Positions 19,330 to 61,147 of a stretch of 64,000 bases of DNA are shown piece after piece (position 1 is the first letter of the stretch; each line of letters opens with the position of its first letter). Location of the stretch: contig LLCB01000066.1 of NCBI GenBank assembly GCA_001414345.1, forward strand, positions 62,001-126,000, written 5' to 3'. The translations under genes and the position numbers were made by a program. A model generated the notes under the pieces. It was not told the DNA's origin, ran no database searches, and saw nothing but the letters and a program-made list of their open reading frames with translations. Source of the stretch: Hymenoscyphus infarciens. Taxonomy: Eukaryota > Ascomycota > Leotiomycetes > Helotiales > Helotiaceae.

Positions 19330-21570
19330 CTTGAAGTTTGGGATTTGGTAATTGATTGAAGAGGTTGGAAGGTTTGAGGTGGGTTGAAGGATTGAGGTTT
19401 GTAGAGGAAGATGTGTGAAAGAGAGTGGATGAAGTATCAAAAGAGTGTACTTGAAGTTGGATGGGGAGGAAAGAAAAGAAGGTGGAGAGGAGCGAGGTGT
19501 TGGAGTATAAGTAGTACGCGTCGAGCTTGTCTTTGATAACGTCAACGGTCAACCCTCCCAATGCCTCTCAATAATCCATACTCACTCGGAGGTGAGCCTT
19601 GGGTTGTCCACTCAACCCCTCCCAAAGATATAGTCCCCACATTAAGGGATGAGACTTTTTGATATCAACTTGCCAGGGCTGCGACTCTGCAGGTGCTTCC
19701 AACGGTAAAACGCCACATCAATTTCCAAGGGACGACTTTATCAAAATGTCTCTTTTATGGGGGATGAGAGATGTGGCACCGAGCTTCTGTGGGGGTATAT
19801 CTTAAAATTAGATCTAGCATTGCAAGGCAAGCGAAGTTTGGAAGGTTTAGACAGCGAACACATAAACAATTCAAGAGTCCTGTTTCTGAGTAAACAACGC
19901 GTCAGATGAGGGAGGTATTACCATTTCGAGCTCAATGACACCCTCCTTCCTTTCTTTCCAGAGGTAGGGATGATATTTTATCGATATCTGCAACCGAGGA
20001 GCTTCCTTCCTGAAAGGGGGTACGATATCGACGGTACCTGCATACATCCCTGAATACCCAAATCGTTGGCTTGTGGATGAATTGGTGCCCTGCCCTGTTG
20101 CTCTCATAATCTTACTCTGGGTCTCCAATGAGACGTGACTCTTCGGTTTATGGCAATTGGTCTTGCGGAAGGTGTCGGTTGGAAGATTGACTTGGTGTTG
20201 CACCACACGTGCTTATCCAGATTGCGATCAGTATTCTCGAAAGGGGCGAAGTGAATTTGAGGCTCAGCAATGGATCTGGAGAATTGATTTTCCAGAAATC
20301 ATGAACAGATCAGCGAGATTGATGTTCTGGATTCCAAGGTTTTGGTGAAGAGTGGTGTTTCGAGTTGACCGTTGCGATATTACACGTTCGTCGATCATTT
20401 TTAGGAGGAGATAAGAAAGCCGTTCGACGGAGATTTCACACGGGTTCATATGAATGGCGTTTATTTATATCCCCGTAAGTTCAAGAAGATCAAACTCGCT
20501 GACCACTTGATGAACTGGTTCAATGATGGAAGCATGAAGGATGAAGACTGTGGGGAACCCTTGAATGGATACCCCCACATTCAGGGCGTAAAATGAGGCG
20601 TTCAGCGTTCAGCGCTCCAGCCACAGGCCACGAGTTGACAATTCATACATGGACCTCATTTTCAAGGTCTGCCTTGGGAAGGGAGAACGTTTGAATTATT
20701 CAAGTCAACGAGGGAGAGTCCAAGAGGGCGGACATGTTGAGGGTGCTACGGTGACTGAGGGCGAGTGAAAATGTGTCTTAGCCCTCCAATTTGAGATTCA
20801 AGGCCATATTTCAACAGCCCTCCAATCTTCAGTTCCACCAGGGCAAGCAATGAAGCTGCCATAGAATCCGATCCTTCCTCGTCTTCTGGTATCACTCGCA
20901 GGTAGTCGTGTGGTATTTATGTTCAATCATTGAAACCCTCTCCATAGGGTAAAGGAGAACGCTTCACCCATAATCGAGCACTTTCTTCTCCGTTTCTACT
21001 GACGAACCGGTTGTCATGGAGCCTCACATCATCCGAAGACGACGGGCTTCTCGAACTGATTGCTTTGAGCGAACGTGTTGTTTTGCGTTGAGTAAATAAA
21101 TTTACTTTGTTGGAGAAGAAAAGAAGAAACTACGAGCCTCAAAAAATTAGAATAAGTAGAAATTTTTCGCCGACTAGCGTCGTGGCCTGAATTGCTGCCC
21201 AAGGCCTTCATCGACATCGCGCGCCACTTGATGGGAAAGCGGCGCTGTTTGCGGGTTCGCGGCGAACCTGGAGTTTGATAGCCAGCAAGAATTGCTTTCG
21301 ATTGTGGTATTCTTGTGGTATTCTTGTGTTTGTAGGGTATACAGAGTAGGACCACTCTGATACAAAATTTTCCCAATCGTAATGAGTTGTCTTTAACGTT
21401 ACACTTTGTACGGCTGATCTCGCTTACAGCGGCGTGCCATTTTTCAAACGGCCGGAGACGACGTCAAATAAATTTTGGTGGGGTTGACCCCGCCAAGTTA
21501 CTTCATTCTTTTTTGATTATTTACATTCCCACCAATTTGGTCCAGAATCGAATATCAGAACTTGGTCAAC
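19330..21570. other. Intergenic, no gene firmly supported
   Basis: Divergent upstream region between the small secreted protein gene (-) and the purine-synthesis gene (+). Minus-strand open frames at 19871-20206 and 20264-20449 are not joined by any convincing intron and match nothing I recognise. No tRNA or repeat element is seen. Confidence 0.35.
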
Positions 21571-46463: not shown

Positions 46464-46995
46464 GATTGTGATTTTGAATTTAATACTAGAGTCGAGAAGT
46501 TATTGATAACTAAGTGTTAGATTTATGTTTCTCGAGCTATATTAGGCGTAAGATAAGGGCACGTAGATGTATTTATAGACAAAGAAGTGCACATAATGTA
46601 AGCATCTTATCACTCAGACCTACCTTGCAGCACCACCTAGTGCTACCACTCACAAAAATTACGAGCACTAAAGCCACATTCTTACAAATCGTAAAATATT
46701 TCTCTCTATATAAATAGTTATTTACCTTCCCGAACAGGAATATTTGTTTAGCAATAGCCTTATTTCCGTGATTCAAGCATAAAACTACGTACATTAGTAG
46801 ATAATATTTTCACGTAGCTACACACGATTGGATTCTTACCGTAGTCACTTCAATATGAACGAAATTCCTTGTACTTGACTGTTTACTTTGGTACAGTAAT
46901 TGTGAAGACACTGTCGTAAACAACTCTTAATTTCTGAGACTAGCATACTCAGCACGTCATCATCGTATCTCCCCACTTTTTGGAAACCATTTATG
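46464..46995. other. AT-rich intergenic DNA
   Basis: AT-rich DNA leading into the first inverted-repeat element. No gene is seen. Confidence 0.35.
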
Positions 46996-47286
46996 AGTTT
47001 TGCTAAATCCCCTGACCCTTTTGACTAAATCGCCTAATCTAACTAAATTAGGACATTTTCCGGTCGCGAACACTACTAAAGTACAAAATCATATATTACT
47101 AACCCTTATCCCTAGCCCTAACCCATACCCGATCCCTAACCCTAACTAACTAACTAACCCTAACCTTAAAAACCAGATTACTATCCCTGGAATAGACAAT
47201 TAGTGTTATGCGCGCGCAATAGGAGTGAATAATCGGGTTAGAGTCAGGCGATTTAGTCAAAAGGGTCAGGGGAGTTAGCTGAAGCC
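46996..47286. mobile_element. Candidate MITE with 42-base inverted repeats and telomere-like interior
   Basis: The left arm (47002-47043) and right arm (47237-47279) are inverted copies, identical over a 28-base core that includes TCCCCTGACCCTTTTGACT. Flanking both sides is the 9-base direct repeat CCATTTATG (46987-46995 and 47287-47295), which would fit a Mutator-like target duplication. A TA dinucleotide next to each arm would alternatively fit a Tc1/mariner insertion. The interior (about 47098-47165) is rich in CCCTAA-type repeats. There is no coding capacity, so the element is non-autonomous. Confidence 0.75.
47098..47165. repeat. Degenerate telomere-like (CCCTAA)n tract
   Basis: Several CCCTAACC units mixed with variants (CCCTTATCC, CCCTAGCC, CTAACTAACTAA). 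Fungal telomeres are usually TTAGGG repeats, so this is an interstitial telomere-like sequence, here inside an inverted-repeat element. Confidence 0.7.
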
Positions 47287-47688
47287 CCATTTATGCTTGA
47301 TAACTATTTATAGATCGCACAAATGACTCATCATAAAAAGGAAGAAGAGCAGTATTAATCGCAAGGGCAGTGATTTTCTATTGAAGAGAGGAAAATCTCG
47401 ACTTTTTCGACGGCGGGCCTCATTTGTGATCCCGTCTTTCTTATGGAAGTTCTGGGCTTCCTTCCGAGAACACTACCTGATTTTTTTATTTCAGATAGTC
47501 TTCTATTATGAAATAGTCTCTCTCTCTCTTTTTATTCTCCTAGGGTTAGTGTTTTCTATTGTCAGAAGGGGCAGGTGAACCTTGAAGGAAGTCATCTGAG
47601 GTTTAATCTTCGACTCAGGTTAGTGAATTAGACTAAATTAATGACTTGGCTACTCTTGTGTAATTTTGTTTTTGCTAATAAGCATTTT

Positions 47689-48215: not shown

Positions 48216-49637
48216 CATCTGTAATAGAAAGAGAATTCGATTCACATTATTTGACACCAATTCACATCATAGTAGCTTCGTCTAAGGTTTGAAATACTTG
48301 ATGTGCCAGCTTAGTCTTAATCGATACTGACTGACCTGTCACCATCGAGACTGGGATATAAGCCCCGCATGCCCTTATAGAGCCTCCTGAACTGAGGACA
48401 TCATCAACCACAGCAACAACAGGTATTGTGGTCAGTTGTTTGATAGTGTCGGATAAAATGTTAGCCTCTCGACGGCTAACGGCTAAATCTTTCACGCCAA
48501 CCGGTTACGACTTTGCTGCGGAATTTGGTACAAATTCGCCCCCTAATTTCACAAGGCTGCTTCTTGTATATGATGAGATCTTGGTATATTGGAACTTGTT
48601 TTGGAGAGAATAAGTGATACACGGTGGCCTCTCTCCTTACCATAGTAGACACTGATGAAAGACAATTAGCCACATAAACAATCCAAGTGTAAGAGTGATT
48701 TTTCTACTGAGCGCACGAACGAACCAACTTGCCCTCAGTCATAGACCGAATATAATTCTGTGGCCACTTGTGAACGATTTTCCAAGTCCTTCGATAAGGT
48801 GATTTCTGACGGGCATATCTCTTTCGGGAGTAGAGTCAAATATGAGGAAGAAACGAGAACTCCAAAATTCAAGTGCCACTCTTCATCCCAGACCCAGTCA
48901 GCTCTATTAACTCTTACTTAGCTTTCCATATCTCTATTTTTCTCTATTACCTGTTCACTACAACCCACCCGTTTTCTAGGTAGGTATCTACTCACTAAAT
49001 TTGACGTCAGCCCTCTTTTCATATCAAAATACTTCATCAGATTCGTCCTAGCCAATCAAGTCAAACAATGCTCGCTCAATATTCTGACTTGACTTAAATA
49101 TATAACCAGCTACTATAATATTGTTGATTTGCTTCTTCCTTCTTGTTGTTGCCCATAACCTGTGACTGCTGATATATGTTTTTTGATTTGTTTTGGTGAA
49201 GACTTCAAGACTATCAATAGTGAAATAAAACTAGGTTACCTCGCCTGACACTGTTTGTTACTAAATGAATAGAGTCGAGTTGAGCGATCGCCTGTTACTC
49301 TACTCTGCTTACCTACTTATGAGTAACGTTTAATTACACTGAGTAATTAAGTAGTTTGTTAATACGCTGTCTCTCTAAGAGCCCAAGCTATTGGTGTTTG
49401 ACTCCGACTAGAATATTTCTATTAACAAGTATATTTTGCTTGAGGATTCATGACAAGAAATGTCTCTTTGAGTAACGATTTTTCACTTAACGTTGATTCA
49501 CATACACAACATAAGTTGGTCTATATAACGCTGGTTACTTTGCCGTAGCTGTCCTCCTTAACTTTCTCATTACACTATTTTTACAATTCGCAAGAAACAA
49601 CGCACAAATACAATAAGCACTTCAAAACAGTAGCAGA
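48216..49637. other. Intergenic; possible broken coding fragment on the minus strand
   Basis: On the minus strand, two overlapping frames (48673-48476 and 48495-48262) read as protein-like text including YHLFSPKQVPIYQDLI and then VVAVVDDVLSSGGSIRACGAY, in different frames as after a frameshift. I do not recognise them. The rest (48700-49520) is AT-rich upstream DNA of the cysteine-rich protein gene. Confidence 0.3.
49522..49528 (+). promoter_or_regulatory. TATA box of the cysteine-rich secreted protein gene
   Basis: TATATAA lies 110 bases before the start codon at 49638, a suitable distance for a core promoter of a highly inducible fungal gene. Confidence 0.6.
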
Positions 49638-50272
49638 ATGTACCCAAATACTCTTATCTTCCTATTCTTGGGATATGCTATGATGGTAAGTTACTATCTA
49701 TCTTCGATTCTCAAGTCTTTGCTAACATGGAATTTGGTTAGCTCTCAGCGTCGCCTATCGTCATCCCTCAAGTACTCCCAAGGACCAACAATACTCTAGA
49801 AACCCGGCACAAAGTAAGCATACACTAACCCTCTCTGATTCAACCTTTGCCTCACTTAGTCGGGAGTCGACTGCGGTTTCTGCAGAGATAAAGGATATGT
49901 CGGAACCGGCTACAATTCAGTGAATGGCAATGCCGATTACCTTAAGGGCAAAGGCGGCAGTTGTTTTGTCAAGTCCAAAGGAGAGGCGCGTGTTGCCTGC
50001 GAATCTAGCTCTGCTATATTTCTTTACAACGAGGTAGGTTTACGCATTTATCTTCTTCTATCACCCTCCCTTTGAACTAAACTGACTGATGAATTTACTA
50101 GAACGACTACGATATAGCCCCAAATTGCGAGTACATAGGTACCTATGCAACGGATATTATCACTGCCTGTTACTATCCTGGGAGCGGAACCGCCGTCTGT
50201 GGTAAAGCGTCTGATACTGATAACTACAGTGTCGTTGTCCGAGCAGCAAACTGCAAAACCGGCATGAGATAG
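49638..50272 (+). CDS. Small cysteine-rich secreted protein, family member 1
   Basis: Four exons, 49638-49685, 49742-49813, 49860-50033 and 50102-50272, all introns phase 0 with GT donors and AG acceptors; the product is 154 residues. The N terminus is a signal peptide (YPNTLIFLFLGYAMMLSASP). A short segment ending LETRHK follows, possibly a propeptide. The mature part has eight cysteines at 45, 48, 75, 87, 107, 121, 131 and 149, so four disulfides are possible. Landmarks are GGSC, VAC, IAPNCEY and CGKASDTDNYSV. It is clearly paralogous to the minus-strand gene at 60530-61147: seven cysteines coincide and exon lengths match (48, 72, 174/177, 171/153). I do not recognise the family. Size and cysteine pattern suggest an apoplastic effector or antimicrobial-type protein, with a KP4-like fold as an untested possibility. 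It lies beside transposon relics. Confidence 0.78.
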
Positions 50273-52924
50273 GAGGCTTTTAGTACCTGCGGATACAAAT
50301 CCTGTGTTTGTTTTTGCACTAAAATACTTGTCATAGCTACGAGCACATACGTGGCTACCGTCAAGGCGCTAATAGAAATTCTTTTATTTCGGCTGGTTGA
50401 GTTTAGATCCTGGCGTTATAATGTAACTTATGGAGGGAACTTCTTAAGTATTCTAAAAGCTGAGTTGGTTGGAACTTGTCTTGAGGGAACTAGATAGCAC
50501 GCCGGCTGTGCTTATTTCCTTTTCATTTTGTACATCGATGAAAGGATAACTTATTCATATCAGACTTTGAAGTTTGAGAATTTTATTTTATTTAAACGAA
50601 ATTGACTCATTAGCCTTCTCGTGAAGTTCAGTAAACTCCATCTCATTTTATCCTCGGTGCTAAGCGAAAGATCCCGTGTGATTATGACCCGCCGACTACT
50701 CACCACCCTTTGAGTAAAACAACTTATCCAGAAGCACAGACAAGTTATCTAACCCTGTTTCAGAACTCGAACTCCAATCATCAACGGGCCCAAGTTTGTT
50801 CAATAGCAAGAGACGTGCTGAAACAGGCTCATAAAAGCTGGAAAGTCCTCAGAGATTGCTTTCGGAATGTAATGTTCCGTCGGCAAATGTCATCGGAAAG
50901 AACACCACCAGGTTAGGGAACTCATTTTGGCATTGCGCATTCCTTTGCACTGTGTATTGATTTCTACAAAAGATATATTCATTCTAACTCAACAGTCATG
51001 CAGAAAGTAGGCCCATCAGTTGCGACAAAGCCTTTGGCGAGAAGTTTGACTACGCGACGGGGTAATTGTTTACTTTACATCCAGAGAGAGAATCCAGTCA
51101 TTAAACCGTGTTCTTCCGGCCTGTGAAATCCGAGGGTAGGGTCTCAAACTACAGAACAAGAGCTACTGCCCTCACAATGAAATTGAGCAATTGAACCTAG
51201 AGTGACAGCAGCGCGAGCTCACCTGGAGTTCCTGGCCTCATCATCTCATGCCTTTCCCAAATGGCGGCGTACTTTCGCGTCGTTCCCGCATAGAGGGAGG
51301 TTTCGTATGGCATAGACCGGGAAAACTGTCCAGACCTGAAAGTCTCGTATTGAGCTGTAACAGGAAGGTTGGTTTATAAGCTGCCTCTATATGAAGTCGC
51401 TCATTACCGGATCGGTCCACTTGGTCGTGAATTTAAGCTTCGCAATGGCTTGATTGAGACTGGTGAGATGGTGAAGGTGGTGAAGTGGAGTGCCGTCAGG
51501 AGCTTTATCTGTGGCGGTGAATTTCAGCCACAGAGAGCTCCCGCGTTGCCCCCGTGGGATTTCACCGCCGCAAGCAAACCTGAGCTTCCGATGCATTGAT
51601 GCAACTCCCCAGCTTCATATCGCGCGATGCACCGATTGGCGATGTCGATGGCACCTTGATACGATTTGACAAGGTCCCGTCTGTATCCCCCGTACCGTAA
51701 CGATTTGTACTCGAGTACTGATTCGCCGGTATACCTGGGACACTTTGATGAGTTGAGCCTCGGTTTGATGAGAGCACCTTGAACTCCTGAGGCAATCTTA
51801 ACCTCCAATCCACCGGAGTCCCCTATCACAACATCACAACATCTCATCGCCACCACTGAAGTCCAACAGAGATCTTCTCCTCAGCTGCTCTGCTCCTTGA
51901 GGATCTACGAAGTGCTCGATAACTTTTCCCCCAATCCAATCCCTCCCCCACAGTCGGACCAACTGACCGAGGACCCCTCATGACCAATTCATGGCGGATG
52001 ACGGCAGGGCCTGTCAACTATCGACATTTGTTTTTGTTGGTGCACCTTCCTAGATGGGACTGATATCCGCATCCGCACTCTGGAATGCTTAAAGCCTTCT
52101 CGCACGGCCACGATAGGGTATTAGCCGCTCACATCCGATCTTTCGACTTCGTCAAACCTTATTCCACCTTCTGTGAGGACTCAGGAGGAACCGAGGAGGG
52201 GAAGGAAGAGCTTCGGGTCGGTGGCGGGTATTTTTGGGTTGCATCCATTTTGATACACGGACTTTTATGGCTTGTAGAAGTACCTACATATTCTTCCGGA
52301 GCGATCATGTTCCTCCTCCTTTTATTCGCCGATATCCGCCCCTAGAAACGGAAGCTCATCTTGAGTCTCCTTCTTGGTCGGGTCTAGGTTCAGGAACAAC
52401 GGTAGGTTAGGCGAATCATATCACTCTAAGTACTACAGTTATGGAGTAGGGCTAAATTTAAGATCGGCACGTCCAGATTCAAGCTTCGCTTGGCTCTCCT
52501 TTTGCATGCATCCAGTCTTTGCTGGTAATCTTGGCTGCCGACGATTGAGTGAGTGGTGTCTGGGAAAGTGAATACTCCTCCGAAGTCTTGGTTGGCCCTC
52601 GCGCTTCTAATGCTTGTGAATCTACATTAACGAGGGATCCGAGGAATCTGATTCGTCAAGGCGATATCCGATCTCTATCAGTTCCCCAAGCCCTGCCGTA
52701 CGAGGGAAGCAGTGCATGGTGCAATACAGCTAAGCCTTGCATTCAAGCAGTTCACCACCATGTATAAAGGCTTGTCTACTTCCTCTCTGTTTCTTTCTTC
52801 TCCATCCTCAAGTTCAAGTTCAAGCTCGCCTTCTCGGTCTTCTTCCACTTCTCTTGGTCTTCAAGTTTGCAATCTTCCTTCGCTTTAATCATCAACTCTT
52901 TGAAGTTACACACCTTCTTTCAAG
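50273..52924. other. Gene-free stretch, 2.65 kb
   Basis: No gene is supported. Open frames at 51369-51599 and 51524-51856 lie on opposite strands of the same DNA and neither looks protein-like. An imperfect inverted pair around GGCGGTGAATTTC (about 51513) and ATTTCACCGCC (about 51560) could form a hairpin. The last 160 bases are the TATA-containing promoter of the aspartic protease gene. Confidence 0.4.
52763..52768 (+). promoter_or_regulatory. TATA box of the aspartic protease gene
   Basis: TATAAA lies 157 bases before the start codon at 52925 and is followed by a pyrimidine-rich leader. Confidence 0.55.
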
Positions 52925-54265
52925 ATGTATTCTGCCTTTGCTCTTCTCGCTCTTGCCGCTTCGGTTCAAGCAGCCCCTGTCGCTGAGGTCGCTGAAGTTG
53001 CTGTCGTCGGTGCTGCAGAGTTCTCTGCACCCGCCATCAAGAACCCCAACTACACTCGCAATGGAACTGCTGCTTTGATCAAGGCATACGCCAAGTACAA
53101 CTTGTCACCACCTCAAGCATGTTCCGAGGCGTTCACTGCCGAGTTGAACGGTCTCAAGTCAGCCAAACAAAAGCGTCAAGACAGCTCTGCACCAGCTTCC
53201 CCTTCCGACGGAGTTGAGTATTTGGTTAGCACAAACGTTGGAGGACAGAAATTGAACTTGGATTTCGATACGGGATCTGCTGACTTGTAAGTCCTCCTCT
53301 TTACCGAGACCTTTGTTTCCAACTAACATAATTTACAGGTGGGTTTTCTCAACCTCGTTGGCCACTTCGTCCCAATCTGGACACCATATTTTCAACCCAA
53401 CCTCCAGCAAGAGTTTCAAGAAATTGACCGGAGCTTCTTGGAAGATTACATACGCAGATGGATCTGGAGCTTCTGGAACTGTTGGTACTGACACAGTAAC
53501 CGTTGGAAGCACTACCGTCCAGGGCCAAGCGGTTGAACTTGCCACCAAAGTGTCCTCCCAGTTCGTTCAGGATACCTCTGACGGACTTCTTGGTCTCGCA
53601 TTCAGTAACATCAACACTGGTAAGTTTACACTCATCAAATCATAGCGAGCACGGCATTCTAACGAATCACAGTTACCCCAACCCAACAAAAGACCTTCTT
53701 CGACAACGCCAAGAGCTCTCTCACCAACCCTCTCTTTGCTGCTTACCTCCCATCGAACGCAGATGGAGCTTATGACTTTGGTGCTGTCAACGCTGCTCAC
53801 CACACTGGCTCCGTCACTTACGCCTCAGTCGATTCCTCCGGAGGGTTCTGGGAGTTCCCATCTACCTCTTACAAGGTTGGCACTACCGCCCACACACTCT
53901 CCGGAGCCACTGCTATCGCAGACACCGGAACCACCCTTCTCCTCATGCTCGACTCTGCCGTTACTGCCTACTACGCTCAAGTGAAGGGCTCTTCGTTCGA
54001 TTCGACCAACGGAGGATATATCTTCCCTTGCACTGCCACCCTCCCAGATATCTCTCTCCGCATCGGCACCACTTCCTACGCCACCATCCCAGGAAAGTTG
54101 ATCAACTTCACTCCAGCTGACAACAGTGGCAAGTCCTGCTTTGGAGGACTCCAGTCTGTTGGTGGTGGAAGCCAAAGCATTTACGGAGATGTTTTCTTCA
54201 ACGCCAACTATGGTGTTTTCGATGCCAGCGGACCTAAATTTGGATTCGCTCCTATTGCTGCATAG
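52925..54265 (+). CDS. Secreted aspartic protease (A1 family, aspergillopepsin-like)
   Basis: Extracellular acid endopeptidase that degrades host or environmental protein. Three exons, 52925-53286, 53339-53619, 53673-54265; the product is 411 residues. Signal peptide MYSAFALLALAASVQAAP; a propeptide runs to about residue 85 and ends with a dibasic Kex2-type site (KQKRQ). The two catalytic motifs are present: DFDTGSADLW (Asp115) and AIADTGTTLL (Asp298). The flap region contains ITYADGSGASGTVGTD. A disulfide pair near the end is likely (FPCTATLP and GKSCFGGLQ). The C terminus is family-typical (SIYGDVFFNANYGVFD). One N-glycosylation site lies in the propeptide (NYTRNGT). All catalytic residues are intact. 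Confidence 0.95.
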
Positions 54266-55177
54266 GGTGTGATTCGGTGGATAGCTTAAATACCTGACGG
54301 ACTTTGCGTTTCTTTTGTTATTTTTTCCATGAATTCATGATGTGTGCAGAGAGACAAGGGTGGAGCTGGATGACAATGGCTGATAATTTCTGATTGGACT
54401 TTATCGATCGGGCTTTTCGTCTACTCCATGAAAAATAATACAATACCATCTTGAACATGTTTTGATTTTTAGGGGTTTCCATTCTCTCTCCTTGTCATGT
54501 GATACAAGATGTAATAGCCACGTGGACGTGCGCTAGATCGGGAAAAGGGGCTCGGCAGTGGAGACCGAGTATGATCGGAATTGGAAACGTGGAAAACGGA
54601 GCAATTCCAGCATGCAGAAACAAGATCGTTCGTCGAAGACAAACCCCATTCATTCTCTTTAGTGTAGAATGCGTTCCCAATGATATCCTCAAATGGCGGA
54701 TTTCTCTCCTTCTCTCAAAGTTCGCATTACTCTACTACCGTAGTACAGCCATCCCAACTCCCCACGCGGGATGCATGGCGGTAACGTCATTCCACGTTCC
54801 CAAACCAGGGCGGGGCGGGCAGCGCGCAAGACCTGAGGGTGCTCGAGTACGGTACCCCACTACGCCCTCATTCAGTCTCTCTCCTCGTCGACTGGACTGC
54901 CTCTCGTAATCCATTTCCTCAGTTGCAGATATATATTTATATCTTCAATCTCCCTTCCTCTCACCTCGCACATCGCACATCGCACGCATTGAATTCAAGC
55001 CCTCATCCCTCAGCCTCACCCACATGTTGCACCTCGGCATCTGACGCTCTTCTGCCCAATGCCAATGTCAATGCCAATGCCAATGCCTTCGTGAACCAAA
55101 AATTAAAGTCACCTCTGGTCCGCACTGTGCAGCGCCAGGCTCAAGTTCGTCTCGCCCATCGCCCACGCCCCACCTCG
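54266..55177. other. Intergenic, promoter and leader of the PKA gene
   Basis: 3' flank of the protease gene, then a C-rich upstream region. A run of CAATGC-type repeats (ATGCCAATGTCAATGCCAATGCCAATGCC, about 55059-55088) lies in the leader and is open in the kinase frame. No separate gene is seen. Confidence 0.4.
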
Positions 55178-56863
55178 ATGAAATCGGTGTCGCAAATGGC
55201 CACGGAGGTCATACGCCGAACGGCGCATCCTCTCTCCTCGTCCTCATCTGTTAATACTAATAATCCCAATCCTGCCCCTCCTTCAAATCGCACCCATACT
55301 TCCGACATGGAGAGTACCACGACGACGACGAGGACGACTGCGCAGCAGGAAAAGGAGTTTGTGGCTCATTATGCGGATCAGACTCGTTCGTTGAGGACCG
55401 AGGAGATACAGGAGGATAGGCGGAATAAGGAATTGGGTCATAGTTCTAAGAGTTTGTCGGTCCACGATTTCGAGTTGGTTCGGACTTTGGGGACTGGTAT
55501 GTCTCCATCTTTTTCTTTCCTGTCGATGGACTTGTTGTACATTGTACTCCCGTTTTCTGGGGGGTTCTTGCATGTGCGTCCGTTTTTGGCGCATACATGC
55601 GTGGGCTTTGCTTGTGCGAGGCGGGAATGCGCAGAGGACATGAGGCCAGAAGGAAGGATACTTGCTGATATGCGTGGGCTACAGGGACCTTTGCGAGAGT
55701 ATGGTTAGTACGGCTTGCGAATCCGGCCGAGGAAGATCGCGATAAGGTGTTTGCATTGAAGGTTCTAAGAAAGGTTGAAGGTATGTGTGTCCCTCCTATT
55801 ATGTGCAAAGTACAAGTCAAATCGGGAACTAATTGGTTGGAATTGGGCGCAGTGATCAAATTGAAGCAAGTGGATCATGTCAACCACGAAAGATCAGTTC
55901 TTGCAGATGTCGCCGGACACCCATTCATCACTACATTAATTACCTCCTTTTCCGACCACGATTCTTTATACATGCTGGTAAGCCGCTTTCACAAAGTCAG
56001 TCGGAGTTTGAACTTGGACTGACAAAGGAATAGCTGGACTATTGCCCTGGCGGTGAAGTATTCTCCTACCTGCGGAAAGCAAAGCGATTCGACGAAAACA
56101 CCGCACGATTCTACGCCGCAGAAATAGTCCTCATAATTGAATTTCTACACGAGGGAGAAGGAGTAGCATATCGAGATTTAAAACCAGAGAATTTACTACT
56201 AGATGCAGATGGACACATAAAACTGGTAGATTTCGGATTTGCAAAACGACTTGGAAATAGTGAGTTTCTCCCAGTTCGCATGCGAATCAAGGCGAAGGAA
56301 CTAATGGAAAAATAGGGGAGACATACACATTATGCGGAACTCCAGAATACCTAGCCCCAGAAGTAATCCAATCCAAAGGCCACACAACAGCCGTAGATTG
56401 GTGGGCCCTCGGAATCTTAATATACGAATTCCTAACCGGCTACCCCCCCTTCTGGAATTCCAACCCCATAGAAATCTACAAACAGTACCTTTCCCCCCTC
56501 CCCTCCATCCCCCCCTCATTAACCCTTTCTCTCAGAATAGTATCCAAACCCGTCCACTTCCCCAGCGAACCCTACATCTCGCCCGAGGCCAAGGACATAA
56601 TCCTGCAATTCTGCACCGTCGACCGCTCGCACCGATTAGGAAATATCAGCGGAGGCGCGACAAGAGTTAAGAATCATCCCTTTTTTAAGGGCGTTTATTG
56701 GGATGATGTTTACTATCGGAAGTATCGGGGGCCGATTATCCCGCCTGTGAGGTATCCGGGGGATACGCAGTGTTTTGATCAGTACCCGGATGAGAAGGCT
56801 GGGAGGGAGGTTTATAATGAGGAGCTGAGGGTGAAGTGGGAGGATCATTTTAGGGATTTTTGA
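55178..56863 (+). CDS. cAMP-dependent protein kinase catalytic subunit
   Basis: Ser/Thr kinase of the cAMP pathway controlling growth, carbon sensing and, in many fungi, virulence. Six exons: 55178-55496, 55685-55780, 55853-55977, 56034-56259, 56316-56484, 56536-56863; the product is 420 residues from the ATG at 55178. The frame stays open upstream, and the ATG at 55196 is also possible. A Ser/Thr/Asn-rich N-terminal tail (about 1-95) precedes the kinase domain: glycine loop [18 protein letters not shown] with the ATP lysine, YRDLKPEN (catalytic Asp228), VDFGFAKR (DFG Asp246), [10 protein letters not shown] and [11 protein letters not shown]. The C-terminal tail ends HFRDF, the hydrophobic motif of PKA. 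The sequence looks closer to the second fungal isoform (pkaB/cpk2 type) than to the main one, which is an inference. Confidence 0.93.
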
Positions 56864-58350
56864 GGGGGGGGAGATTCCACTGGATACGAAAAGGGGGGGG
56901 GGAACCTGGAAGAAGAGGGGGGGTGGGGAGTAGGGAAGGAGTAGATAGATGGGAGGAGAGGAGGAAATGTATTATTGATTACGACGCTATGAAGGTGGGT
57001 TTTGTTGTTGGACTGGGCTGGGTGGAAGCTCTTTGGGGGCATATACTTATATATACAGGCATGTGTTTCTTTTTTGTACAGAACAGGGTTGGTCAGTACA
57101 GGCGTTGAAATTGGATGTGGAAAGACGCCTATTTGGCTGTTGTTGGAAAGATCTTTGTTTGAGATTCTTAGTGTAGAAGAAGACCCTTTTTTTCATCGGA
57201 TGGAGAAATATATATACGATTTCCGATAATTAATGGGAGAAGAGTTGACTTACGAAGAGGGGTTGCTGAGGATTTGTGTTTTCTTGTCCGAAATGTCTCG
57301 GACGAAACTGATGACCCCGCCAAACCTGTAAGAGACGTGCCTTTTAATAAGTAATATACGAAAATATTTTGGACCCTTACATCTATTCTCCGAAGGGTTT
57401 AGAAGAATCGGGAAATCGACTCCTCTGAACGTCCAACGTCCGCGTGAAAATAATCGACGAGACAATAGAAGGAGGGGTGTAAAGCCCGGAATGCACACAA
57501 TTCCTATTCATGTTTCGATTTGTCGTTTATGTTTTCAAATCCTTTTTTCATCCTGCTACATTTTCACGATTCAATTGATTACTCTCTCCCGACCTCGGAA
57601 CTAGTCTACGAGTAGAATCCCGTTTTACTACCTGAACGTAAACGAACCCTACCTATATATCAGTGTGAGTACGGGATACAAATAAAATCTGAAGCCACGG
57701 GAAAGGAAGACACGACAGTTGCATAAGCACCCCTGGTATTAGTGGAATAGTTGCCACATCCTCGCATTCCCAAGCATTCCTTCCCACGAGTTTTTGTCAC
57801 CTTATCTCTCCTATTTGGCATCCTGCTCCATCTTTTGCTTTCATCATCACAGGCTCCGAACCTCGGTCGGTGGATGCGGAACCCTGGTTTCTGGAGGGGA
57901 ACGCTAATCAAACGATTATGCCGGACCTTGCGGCTTACGGAAACACGGTTAACTGGGGTATGGTATTTGCATTTTTCCCAAAGTCTTGGGCGTGGGTTGA
58001 ATGGGTGTGCTGAATAACCTGGTGTGCGTTTCGAGGCGCATTTTTGGTGGTGTGTTTGATAAAGGTATATAACGAGGTAGGGAACGAGGTTTGTGTTTCG
58101 TTTTGTGTTCCCGTTACTCGTATCAGCTTTCTTATACTATCTCCATCAACAGCAAGCATCGTCTGTTTTTAGCTGAAGTCTTTCGACGTCATCATCCGAG
58201 GTCTAGATTAGAGCTTATCGTGCAAGCTACCCATTCCTTTGCTGGATTCACGACTACTTGTACAACACCAACAGCTGATACCAGATTCGCATACATACAC
58301 AACGAGGAATTGAAAGGAGGAAAACAACAAACCCAAGAAGAATAGGAATC
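56864..58350. other. Intergenic, no gene seen
   Basis: Immediately after the kinase stop are several G tracts (about 56864-56935). The rest is ordinary non-coding DNA, with the leader of the DUF4336-like gene at its right end. Confidence 0.4.
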
Positions 58351-59313
58351 ATGGCAAACGCTGGCCCCACGAACCCAGATGAAGTGATGGTTATCCGCGA
58401 GCTCGTTCCAGGCGTCACAACCGTCTCGCTGCCCTTCCTTCGAATGGGAAGAATAAAGTTCGGAGGAAGAGCAACAATTGGTATTTCCCCTCCTTCTCCC
58501 TCTCCCTCTCCTTCTCCCTCTCCCTCTCCTTCTCCCTCTCCCTCTCCCTCTCCCTCTCCCTCTCCCTCTCCCTCCGCACATCCAAATACTCATCTCCCAC
58601 CAGTCCGTCTCCAATCCGGCAACCTCGCAGTCTTCTCCCCCGTCGCCCTCACACCCAACCTCAAAACCCACGTCCAATCCCTCGGCACAACCGTCTCCTA
58701 CATGGTAGCCCCCGATTTCGAACACCACATGTTCCTCTCCTCCTGGGCCAACGCCTTCCCCGGCGCGCACATCATCGGCCCCGAAGGACTGGCTGAGAAG
58801 AGGGCACAAATGAACAAAACCGATAAAGAAGTCACGATCTTAGATTTTAAAACGATATTTACAGCCAAAGACAAAGCAACCACGAAAATCAGCGAGGAAT
58901 TCGACAAGGAATTTGATTACGAATACGTCGACACCCATCCTAACAAAGAAATCGTCTTCAACCATCGTCCTTCGCAGACTTTGATACAGGCAGATTTAAT
59001 CTTCAATTTACCAGCTACGGAACAATACTCCAAGACTCCCGGGCAGGATGCCACGAGCGGGTGGGCGACCAGTCTTTTCTCCAAGTTGGCGAATACGAAG
59101 GGGAGTGCGATTTGGCAAAAGAGGTTGCTTTGGTATGTGATGGTGAAGAAGGGCGATCGGGAGGCGTTTAGTGCTAGCATGAGGAGGATTAATGGGTGGC
59201 AGTTTAAGAATATAGTTCCTTGTCATGGGGAAAGTATTTTGGGGGATGGGAAGGGGGTTTTTGAGAAGGTTATGGGGTGGTATTTGGAGGGGGGGAAGAA
59301 GTCGAATTTGTAA
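58351..59313 (+). CDS. DUF4336-like protein (metallo-beta-lactamase-like fold)
   Basis: Two exons, 58351-58480 and 58604-59313; the product is 279 residues. The 123-base intron consists mostly of CTCCCT/CTTCTC repeats. It starts GTATTT and ends CACCAG, is phase 1, and joins GGRATI to VRLQSGNLAVFSPVALTP, the family-typical text. Because the intron length is a multiple of three and has no stop, the DNA also reads straight through as a 320-residue frame with a Ser-Pro repeat; the spliced form is preferred. Conserved features are YMVAPDFEHHMFLSSW, GAHIIGPEGLAEKR, VFNHRPSQTLIQADLIFNLP and the late motif IVPCHGE. DUF4336 proteins resemble metallo-hydrolases but lack a known substrate. Confidence 0.85.
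   Translation: MANAGPTNPDEVMVIRELVPGVTTVSLPFLRMGRIKFGGRATIGISPPSPSPSPSPSPSPSPSPSPSPSPSPSPSAHPNTHLPPVRLQSGNLAVFSPVALTPNLKTHVQSLGTTVSYMVAPDFEHHMFLSSWANAFPGAHIIGPEGLAEKRAQMNKTDKEVTILDFKTIFTAKDKATTKISEEFDKEFDYEYVDTHPNKEIVFNHRPSQTLIQADLIFNLPATEQYSKTPGQDATSGWATSLFSKLANTKGSAIWQKRLLWYVMVKKGDREAFSASMRRINGWQFKNIVPCHGESILGDGKGVFEKVMGWYLEGGKKSNL
58487..58576. repeat. (TCTCCC)n pyrimidine microsatellite within an intron
   Basis: About fifteen hexamers of CTCTCC or CTTCTC type fill most of the intron of the DUF4336-like gene. Confidence 0.85.
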
Positions 59314-60529
59314 TGATGGGGATGTTGGTGGGGTAATGAGGGGTGTTGAGATGGGTGGGGGAATTTTTGGGTAGGGAGTTTGTTTGATATCTCTCTTTAC
59401 TTTTGGTGTCTGTATAACGCAACTATAAATTTTCTTGTTATTACCTTGGTTTATGTTACAAATCTAATGTCTCTCAAACTATTGGCACTCTTTTCTGCAC
59501 ATGGTTGGGTGAGTTTTCTTTCTCCTAAATATTATCCGGAAATCTTTCGACAATTAACAACGGCAACGTGTACCCCTAAAGACGATGTAGTGGTGATTTC
59601 AAGGGGATTCTGAAAGCTTGTTTTAAGTAATCTTTGCTGTTTGACAACAATTACGCCACAAATGTTGAGAAAGTAAAAGTGTAATAAGGGACTAGGTAGA
59701 TGTACCGAGAACGATGCTACGGACTCTTGCTTCGGAAGAAAAGAAATCATAGGAACCCTTGGACGTATTTCATAAAGAGAGCACCTACGCTTTGAAGTCA
59801 ATGTTCCAGAAAACGTTGGAGTATTTTCTTTGCAATTCTCGGAAGATGGTGGCATCTCCACAGACTTTTCGTTCCTTTGCGCGACAACTATCTCAACGTT
59901 GGCAACATATTCCATTTCAACAACCATTTTTCTCAAGTGAAAGATCAAGAACTGACTCGTATTTCGTGTGCTTCGAGTGAAGAAAGCAAATTCTCAACTT
60001 AAAGCTTATAGGCATCTCTTCAGTATGTCAGTTGCCAGCAGCAGATCGAAGTATACCAAGTATACCGGATAGGGAAAAATCAGGAGAATCAACAAATACT
60101 AGCCTGCGGCGTTTTTTCTCAGAACTATGAGAAGAGACCCTCTCGCTTACTAAAGACTCCTAGCCAATCAGGCGATTCATTCACAAGAAAGGGAATACAT
60201 ACCCCGTATTTTTTTGAAATAGGACGTCTTTAAAGCCTGAAGCCTCAAGTAATCTTTTAATGATATCACTCACAGGATAAAACTACACAGGTGAGTAGAG
60301 ATTATGCCTAGTGACTAAAATTCCATTGCAAGTCCTTCAATCAAGTCCCCCGCCAAAATTAAAATTAAATCCAACCAGTTTATGCCCATAAATTTCCCAA
60401 TAAAGTTTCTATGCAGATAGCTTCCATCGCGGATGTCCAAAAAAGGCGCCAAATCAACATCAAAATAAAGCACGAGCTGCTATATCTAGGCCTACTGTCT
60501 CCTGAGCATCTGAAGCTTCTCTCGCAAAC
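59314..60529. other. Intergenic between convergent genes
   Basis: 3' flanks of the DUF4336-like gene (+) and the second cysteine-rich secreted protein gene (-). Overlapping open frames on opposite strands at about 59532-59980 have no recognisable features. Confidence 0.35.
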
Positions 60530-61147
60530 TCAGCAAGGCACAGCCTTGATATTGACATTATATCCATCGGTATCAAATCGCTGACCACAAGCCGGGTAAA
60601 ACCCAGCACTTCCACAGTGTTCAATGATCTCCTGAACGTAGCCGGATAGGTACTCGCAACTTGGGGCTATAGAAGTTTCTCTCTGTAAAACGAATTAGTT
60701 TCAATTGGGAGTGGGAGCTTAAAATACTTGCATCGTTGCAAAGTGTAACTGCTGTCCCAAATTGGCACGCAATAACCGTACAACTACGCGCACCAACGAC
60801 ACAGGAGCCACCGTGAGCCCTCAAGTAATCCCTGTTTTCAAATGTGAATTGGAGCGCGGGGAATCCGTAGTCTGTAAGATGGCTTCCGTCGCAGCAGAAG
60901 AAGCCGTCCTAAGTGAGGAAAGATTTGGTTAGCTCTTTGTTGATTAGAAAGTCAAGCTTTCTTACCTTGTTGCGAGCTTCAAGGCTACCTGTGGTCTCCG
61001 GATTTGCTAGTGGGATGGCGGTTGGGGATGCAGAAATCTGCTGAGGGGTTTGGTTAGCTGAGACAATACACTCAAGGGGAAAGAATGAGAATAACTTGCC
61101 ACCAACGCCCATCCAAGAAATGACCCGGTAAGAGTAGTTGGGTGCAT
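60530..61147 (-). CDS. Small cysteine-rich secreted protein, family member 2 (GC-AG introns)
   Basis: Four exons on the minus strand, 61147-61100, 61037-60966, 60908-60732 and 60682-60530, all phase 0; the product is 149 residues. Introns 1 and 3 appear to use GC donors in an otherwise strong context (GCAAGT); intron 2 uses GTAAGA. A GT one codon earlier at intron 1 would give a 15-codon first exon. Exons 1 and 2 have the same lengths as in the paralogue at 49638-50272. Signal peptide (HPTTLTGSFLGWALVISASP), then a segment ending LEARNK, then a mature part with ten cysteines (45, 46, 76, 83, 88, 97, 108, 122, 131, 149). Cysteines 83 and 97 are additions relative to the paralogue and could form an extra disulfide. 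Landmarks are GGSC, IAPSCEY and CGQRFDTDGYNV. The same frame is open upstream to an ATG at 61354, but homology to the paralogue supports the start at 61147. Function unknown. Confidence 0.74.

Follow-up and report, generated by a model that had tools for sequence, protein, structure and literature searches.

Two genes in a 64,000-nucleotide stretch of the Hymenoscyphus infarciens genome (contig LLCB01000066.1, positions 62,001 to 126,000; hereafter the window) belong to an unnamed, multiplied family of cysteine-rich proteins that occurs in several Helotiales. For these two genes, which we call A and B, structure predictions make a secreted product with the fold of the KP4 killer toxin highly probable. 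The best single functional reading, drawn by analogy, is that the family may act against other microbes, and we put the probability of the explanation as a whole, namely secreted KP4-fold proteins with antagonistic action, at about 0.5.

Both genes lie where a sequence-only reading, made earlier from the letters of the window, had placed them (Table 1). Gene A has exons of 48, 72, 174 and 171 nucleotides (154 residues) and gene B exons of 48, 72, 177 and 153 nucleotides (149 residues), with no internal stops and, as reproduced from the sequence, with all introns in phase 0. The first and third of the three gene B introns start with GCAAGT, that is, with GC instead of GT; when the sequence is read by eye, the first of these also has an alternative, weaker GT donor 3 bases upstream that keeps the frame. 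The two proteins are 38% identical (59 of 156 columns, BLASTP E 2e-34), a likeness that, by sequence comparison, exceeds chance. Identity of the aligned codons is 0.60, 0.59 and 0.46 at positions 1, 2 and 3, and the Nei-Gojobori (NG86) nonsynonymous and synonymous distances, dN and dS, are 0.57 and 1.32. These values suggest that selection has maintained both genes, a reading to be taken with care because dS approaches saturation. The earlier proposal that these secreted cysteine-rich proteins form an old family under selection, with a common exon plan, is borne out.

We searched 5.8 billion proteins for relatives using profiles, a search whose reach is limited to relatives with common short exact words. 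A two-sequence search with A and B returned 682 candidates, all of them with an E above 10. A nine-member profile gave three matches, in Glarea, and an eleven-member profile gave 11 matches and reached other genera. The relatives come from Glarea lozoyensis (three genes), Hymenoscyphus fraxineus, H. albidus, Halenospora varia and Tricladium varicosporioides, and a taxonomy look-up places all four genera in the Helotiales. The family occurs across several Helotiales. The relatives that have a name are annotated as hypothetical proteins, one additionally as 'Secreted protein', and no precomputed Pfam domain is attached to any of the 11 matched relatives. Six of the 12 returned proteins (P0001, P0007, P0008, P0010, P0011 and P0012) have a longer N-terminal region with a common G-x-(I/L)-G-G motif before the KP4-fold domain.

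Sequence searches of family members against Pfam, NCBIfam and the PDB produced chance-level matches only. DUF2824 (0.0021), an oxidoreductase model (0.0033) and a heme oxygenase model (0.0034) each matched one member; these matches are weak and scattered and were set aside as chance. Pfam Kp4 (PF09044) did not exceed its curated cut-off in either window protein, in any of the nine members of A2 or in any of the 12 of A6, and the same scans gave no match above the curated cut-off to Hce2/Ecp2 (PF14856). Neither Pfam nor NCBIfam has a name for the family, and sequence search links it to no PDB entry. Folding was done on two homologs of genes A and B, with single window exons included in the alignments. 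Both models are predicted to form a beta-(alpha-beta2)2 sandwich, the arrangement that characterizes the class of KP4, Zt-KP4 and ginkbilobin-2, and in both of them Zt-KP4 is the closer structural match. The KP4 structure (1kpt) was listed for the first model and ginkbilobin-2 (3a2e) for the second, and we attach no meaning to the absence of either from the other list. Against a viral structure library no match was convincing, none reaching an E of 0.001 or better. By sequence, then, the family belongs to neither Pfam Kp4 nor Hce2, and by predicted fold it falls within the KP4 structural class. The structure comparison proposed earlier came out in favour of a KP4-class fold by way of two homologs, the window proteins being represented in it by single exons, and the description of the family as new does not hold for its kind of fold.

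The cysteines of gene A lie at residues 45, 48, 75, 87, 107, 121, 131 and 149 and those of gene B at 45, 46, 76, 83, 88, 97, 108, 122, 131 and 149. Seven had been counted as aligned; the number is eight, since A48 and B46 also correspond in the alignment. Residues 83 and 97 of gene B, taken earlier for an added pair, correspond to cysteines C4 and C6 of the family, a common state absent, in 22 rows, only from gene A and from the paralog C470 (longer C-prefixed names denote places in the genome). The C4/C6 pair is ancestral and has been lost in gene A. Loss in pairs recurs across the family: C3 is lost with C7 in six members, C2 with C9 in three, C4 with C6 in the two just named and C5 with C10 in two, while C10 alone is missing from two more and C1 and C8 are never lost. 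By our reading, the paired losses amount to seven or eight independent events. Among all 945 pairings of the ten cysteines, scored over 22 rows, the arrangement 1-8, 2-9, 3-7, 4-6, 5-10 leaves only two cells discordant, against 6 for the next best and a median of 26. The two are C10 of C344 and C10 of C470, both of which have uncertain gene ends. When C448 and C91 are added (24 rows), each with one pattern break, the same pairing is the sole best, with four discordant cells versus eight. Because the alignment leaves some cysteines out of register, those judged on inspection to be merely shifted (C2 in gene A, C3 and C7 in P0005, C8 in C305) were scored as present, as was C10 wherever a cysteine stands at the very end. 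The count omits the partial deposited models P0002, P0003, P0011 and P0012 and the decayed or unclear places C126, C376, C236, C37, C1 and C287. We infer from this co-loss that the disulfides are probably wired 1-8, 2-9, 3-7, 4-6 and 5-10; the loss of cysteines in pairs is a clear instance of disulfides that evolve as whole units. KP4 may have the same disulfide order, a comparison that the literature passages searched did not confirm and that serves as a lead only.

We searched the genome (65.6 Mb, 742 contigs) with six protein queries and fetched 20 further family places, every one on another contig than genes A and B. Seventeen of the 20 reach E 1e-3 or better with at least one query; C470 (E 0.019), C37 (E 0.055) and C102 (E 0.9) were accepted on residue pattern or, for C102, on likeness to another copy, C739. 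Six additional weak matches lie outside the 20: C27 (E 6e-4), C737, C20, C74, C102:298993 and C470:200461. Paralog models came from spliced alignment, used in place of an enumerator that had left 8 of 15 loci without a model. With the window genes counted in, predicted phase-0 introns 1 and 2 are kept in eight of the 22 modelled places (A, B, C55, C337, C357, C336, C403 and C470), and predicted phase-0 intron 3 in seven of those eight, C55 being the exception. Several of the other 14 places appear to be broken and the remainder have altered or uncertain exons. An additional predicted phase-1 intron lies close to the gene end in C55, C357 and C403. Downstream of the paralog C337, part of exon 4 occurs a second time as a weak match (L015, G000:C337:58602-58712; E 0.1-0.6).

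A tree of 22 rows, in which row P0009 is over-shortened, has starred support at 3 of 19 inner branches, joining P0006 with C739, P0001 with P0008, and P0004 with C357 and C524; the tree does not show A and B to be sisters. A long-branch warning applies to branches that include A with C470. C305, C336 and P0009 form a less sure group, within which C336 and the H. albidus protein P0009 are joined at weaker support (95/73); if this grouping is right, the subfamily predates the two species. The family has multiplied through dispersed and local duplication, with copies lost by decay.

In the antagonistic reading, exon 1 would encode a signal peptide and exon 2 a short propeptide ending in L-E-x-R-(N/H)-K. 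The mature domain, some 110 residues long and encoded by exons 3 and 4, would be the predicted sandwich held by up to five disulfides. Secretion and trimming would yield a disulfide-armoured domain active outside the producer. This domain would attach to a wall glycan or a membrane protein on the surface of rival fungi or other microbes and slow their growth, by analogy with reports on KP4 and Zt-KP4, and diversification of the copies would reflect shifting targets. A 2025 paper, by its title, reportedly finds that KP4- and KP6-related effectors of Zymoseptoria inhibit fungal growth. Passages of a further paper describe KP4 as a blocker of L-type calcium channels against which high calcium protects, and class Zt-KP4 among proteins cytotoxic to fungi (PMC13211469). 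The predicted shape and the probable disulfide wiring suggest that the proteins work where the fungus meets other microbes or host tissue. A KP4-class mode of action follows if fold predicts function, which need not hold.

The family could instead consist of plant-directed effectors, secreted into plant tissue to alter host immunity or physiology, with the KP4 fold as no more than a stable scaffold. We rank this reading second and consider it unlikely. Glarea, Halenospora, Tricladium and the Hymenoscyphus species are mostly non-pathogens, and some of the fungi carrying the family are saprotrophs. Because the family also occurs in such species, among G. lozoyensis, H. varia, T. varicosporioides, H. 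albidus and H. fraxineus, the label 'effector-type' given to the pair earlier is not established, and microbe-microbe antagonism fits at least as well as an effector role. Speaking for effectors are the AT-rich, repeat-containing stretch around gene A (GC content 0.38), the decayed family copies, and the place of the KP4/ginkbilobin-2 fold, in passages of one survey, among the most widespread folds of orphan effector candidates (PMC10462633). That the proteins are secreted lectins, binding a specific glycan as do mushroom Y3, LDL or ginkbilobin-2, for defence against animals or for wall recognition, ranks third and is improbable given the closer match of both homolog models to Zt-KP4. Chance or mis-splicing as the source of the similarity and exon agreement of A and B would draw on the GC donors required at two gene B introns and on the predicted nature of the gene models. 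It is scarcely credible: joins of conserved blocks recur at identical codons among paralogs, and homologs predicted by other groups already contradict it by carrying the joined sequence.

A broader version of the antagonistic reading, which we regard as quite doubtful, is that this acidic KP4-fold Helotiales family, with more than 20 places in one genome and with copies that are continually born, lose cysteine pairs and decay, serves fungi that are not mainly pathogens as a chromosomal set of killer or recognition proteins that has so far escaped notice. If so, copy-specific targets would be expected, since disulfides come and go as complete pairs.

A broken third family copy lies 1.2 kb upstream of gene A, and beyond it is a repeat resembling a miniature inverted-repeat transposable element (MITE); of 94 candidate matches in the genome 40 were scored, and 39 other copies, 85-95% identical, were among them. 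Gene A had been said to lie next to transposon relics; this is right for the inverted-repeat element, and the other remnant is a decayed family gene.

Elsewhere in the family, the same sequence of about 128-146 bases forms an extra intron in C528, C739 and C102, at two different sites. A genome search in which 40 of 71 candidates were scored found 48 pieces of it, spread over 40 places; many of the pieces span one end only. The element is about 110-147 bases long, starts with GT, ends with CAG or TAG and has a CTGAC-like branch site just before its end. In six further fetched copies the similarity runs from the GT donor to CAG or TAG, and by our reading splicing the element out of three of them (C241, C70 and C263) joins readable conserved protein; the contexts, named by eye without a search, are polyketide-synthase ketoreductase-like, short-chain dehydrogenase-like and argininosuccinate-synthase-like. 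In one more copy, at L010:297-417 on contig C55, both splice ends are damaged. Given these limits, the branch site and the exact splicing in three of six copies, the repeated sequence fits an introner-like element. Such elements are described in Dothideomycetes (PMC4457414) and, in a eukaryote survey whose main text does not use the terms Leotio- or Helotiales, in Pezizomycotina (PMC9860276). The window also holds, at 20915-21097 (-), a match to Rfam Afu_182 (85.8 bits, cut-off 65), a small RNA named after Aspergillus fumigatus.

Table 1. Features of genes A and B, of the surroundings of gene A and of the introner-like element; plain numbers are window positions.
Feature	Position	Strand	Remarks
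Gene A exon 1 (signal peptide)	49638..49685	+	ATG start, GTAAGT donor
Gene A exon 2 (signal peptide end and presumed propeptide)	49742..49813	+	LETRHK at end
Gene A exon 3 (mature domain, first half)	49860..50033	+	C1, C2, C3, C5; without C4, C6
Gene A exon 4 (mature domain, second half)	50102..50272	+	C7-C10; stop included
Gene B exon 1 (signal peptide)	61100..61147	-	then GCAAGT donor
Gene B exon 2 (presumed propeptide)	60966..61037	-	LEARNK at end
Gene B exon 3	60732..60908	-	C1-C6; then GCAAGT donor
Gene B exon 4	60530..60682	-	C7-C10; stop included
Relic of third family member (part of exon 4)	48337..48480	+	two in-frame stops; best E 4e-7 to P0005
MITE-like repeat, about 300 bp	46988..47291	.	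inverted ends (34-nt arms); upstream of relic and gene A
Introner-like element copies	L019:5150-5277(-), L020:4631-4761, L023:4557-4702, L047-L052

These results connect an unnamed fungal family with a structural class some of whose members stop fungi from growing. They also give the family a sequence profile, a characteristic exon pattern and a disulfide map that can be tested. They add another instance of orphan secreted proteins placed by fold, and suggest that such families are not necessarily confined to pathogens. Among known systems, the KP4 killer toxin of the Ustilago maydis virus (1kpt, PF09044) differs from the family, which has no Pfam Kp4 match and whose genes lie in a fungal genome and have introns and a presumed propeptide. 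KP4 is also basic, with an isoelectric point (pI) of 9.0 given in a passage of one paper (PMC5844984), whereas the family is mostly acidic and does not share this strongly basic character, 21 of 23 rows having a pI below 6.5 (fragments counted in, P0009 over-shortened). Ginkbilobin-2 and the plant DUF26 domains have a lower structural score, and the family has no DUF26 match in the Pfam scans; the mushroom lectins Y3 (5v6i) and LDL (4nds) show no similarity to it in the PDB sequence searches. The IGY family of Marssonina is an expanded, secreted Leotiomycete family with uniform gene structure and an N-terminal IGY motif (PMC4367982); the present family is alike in expansion, secretion and uniform gene structure, and genes A and B, read by eye, lack the motif. 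Zt-KP4 of Zymoseptoria tritici (PDB 8acx) is called Hce2 domain-containing in a passage of one paper (PMC11952758), a label that the scanned family members, having no Hce2 match, do not share. Its sequence identity to the family is 7-8%, and the two are alike in predicted fold, in strand and helix order and in small size.
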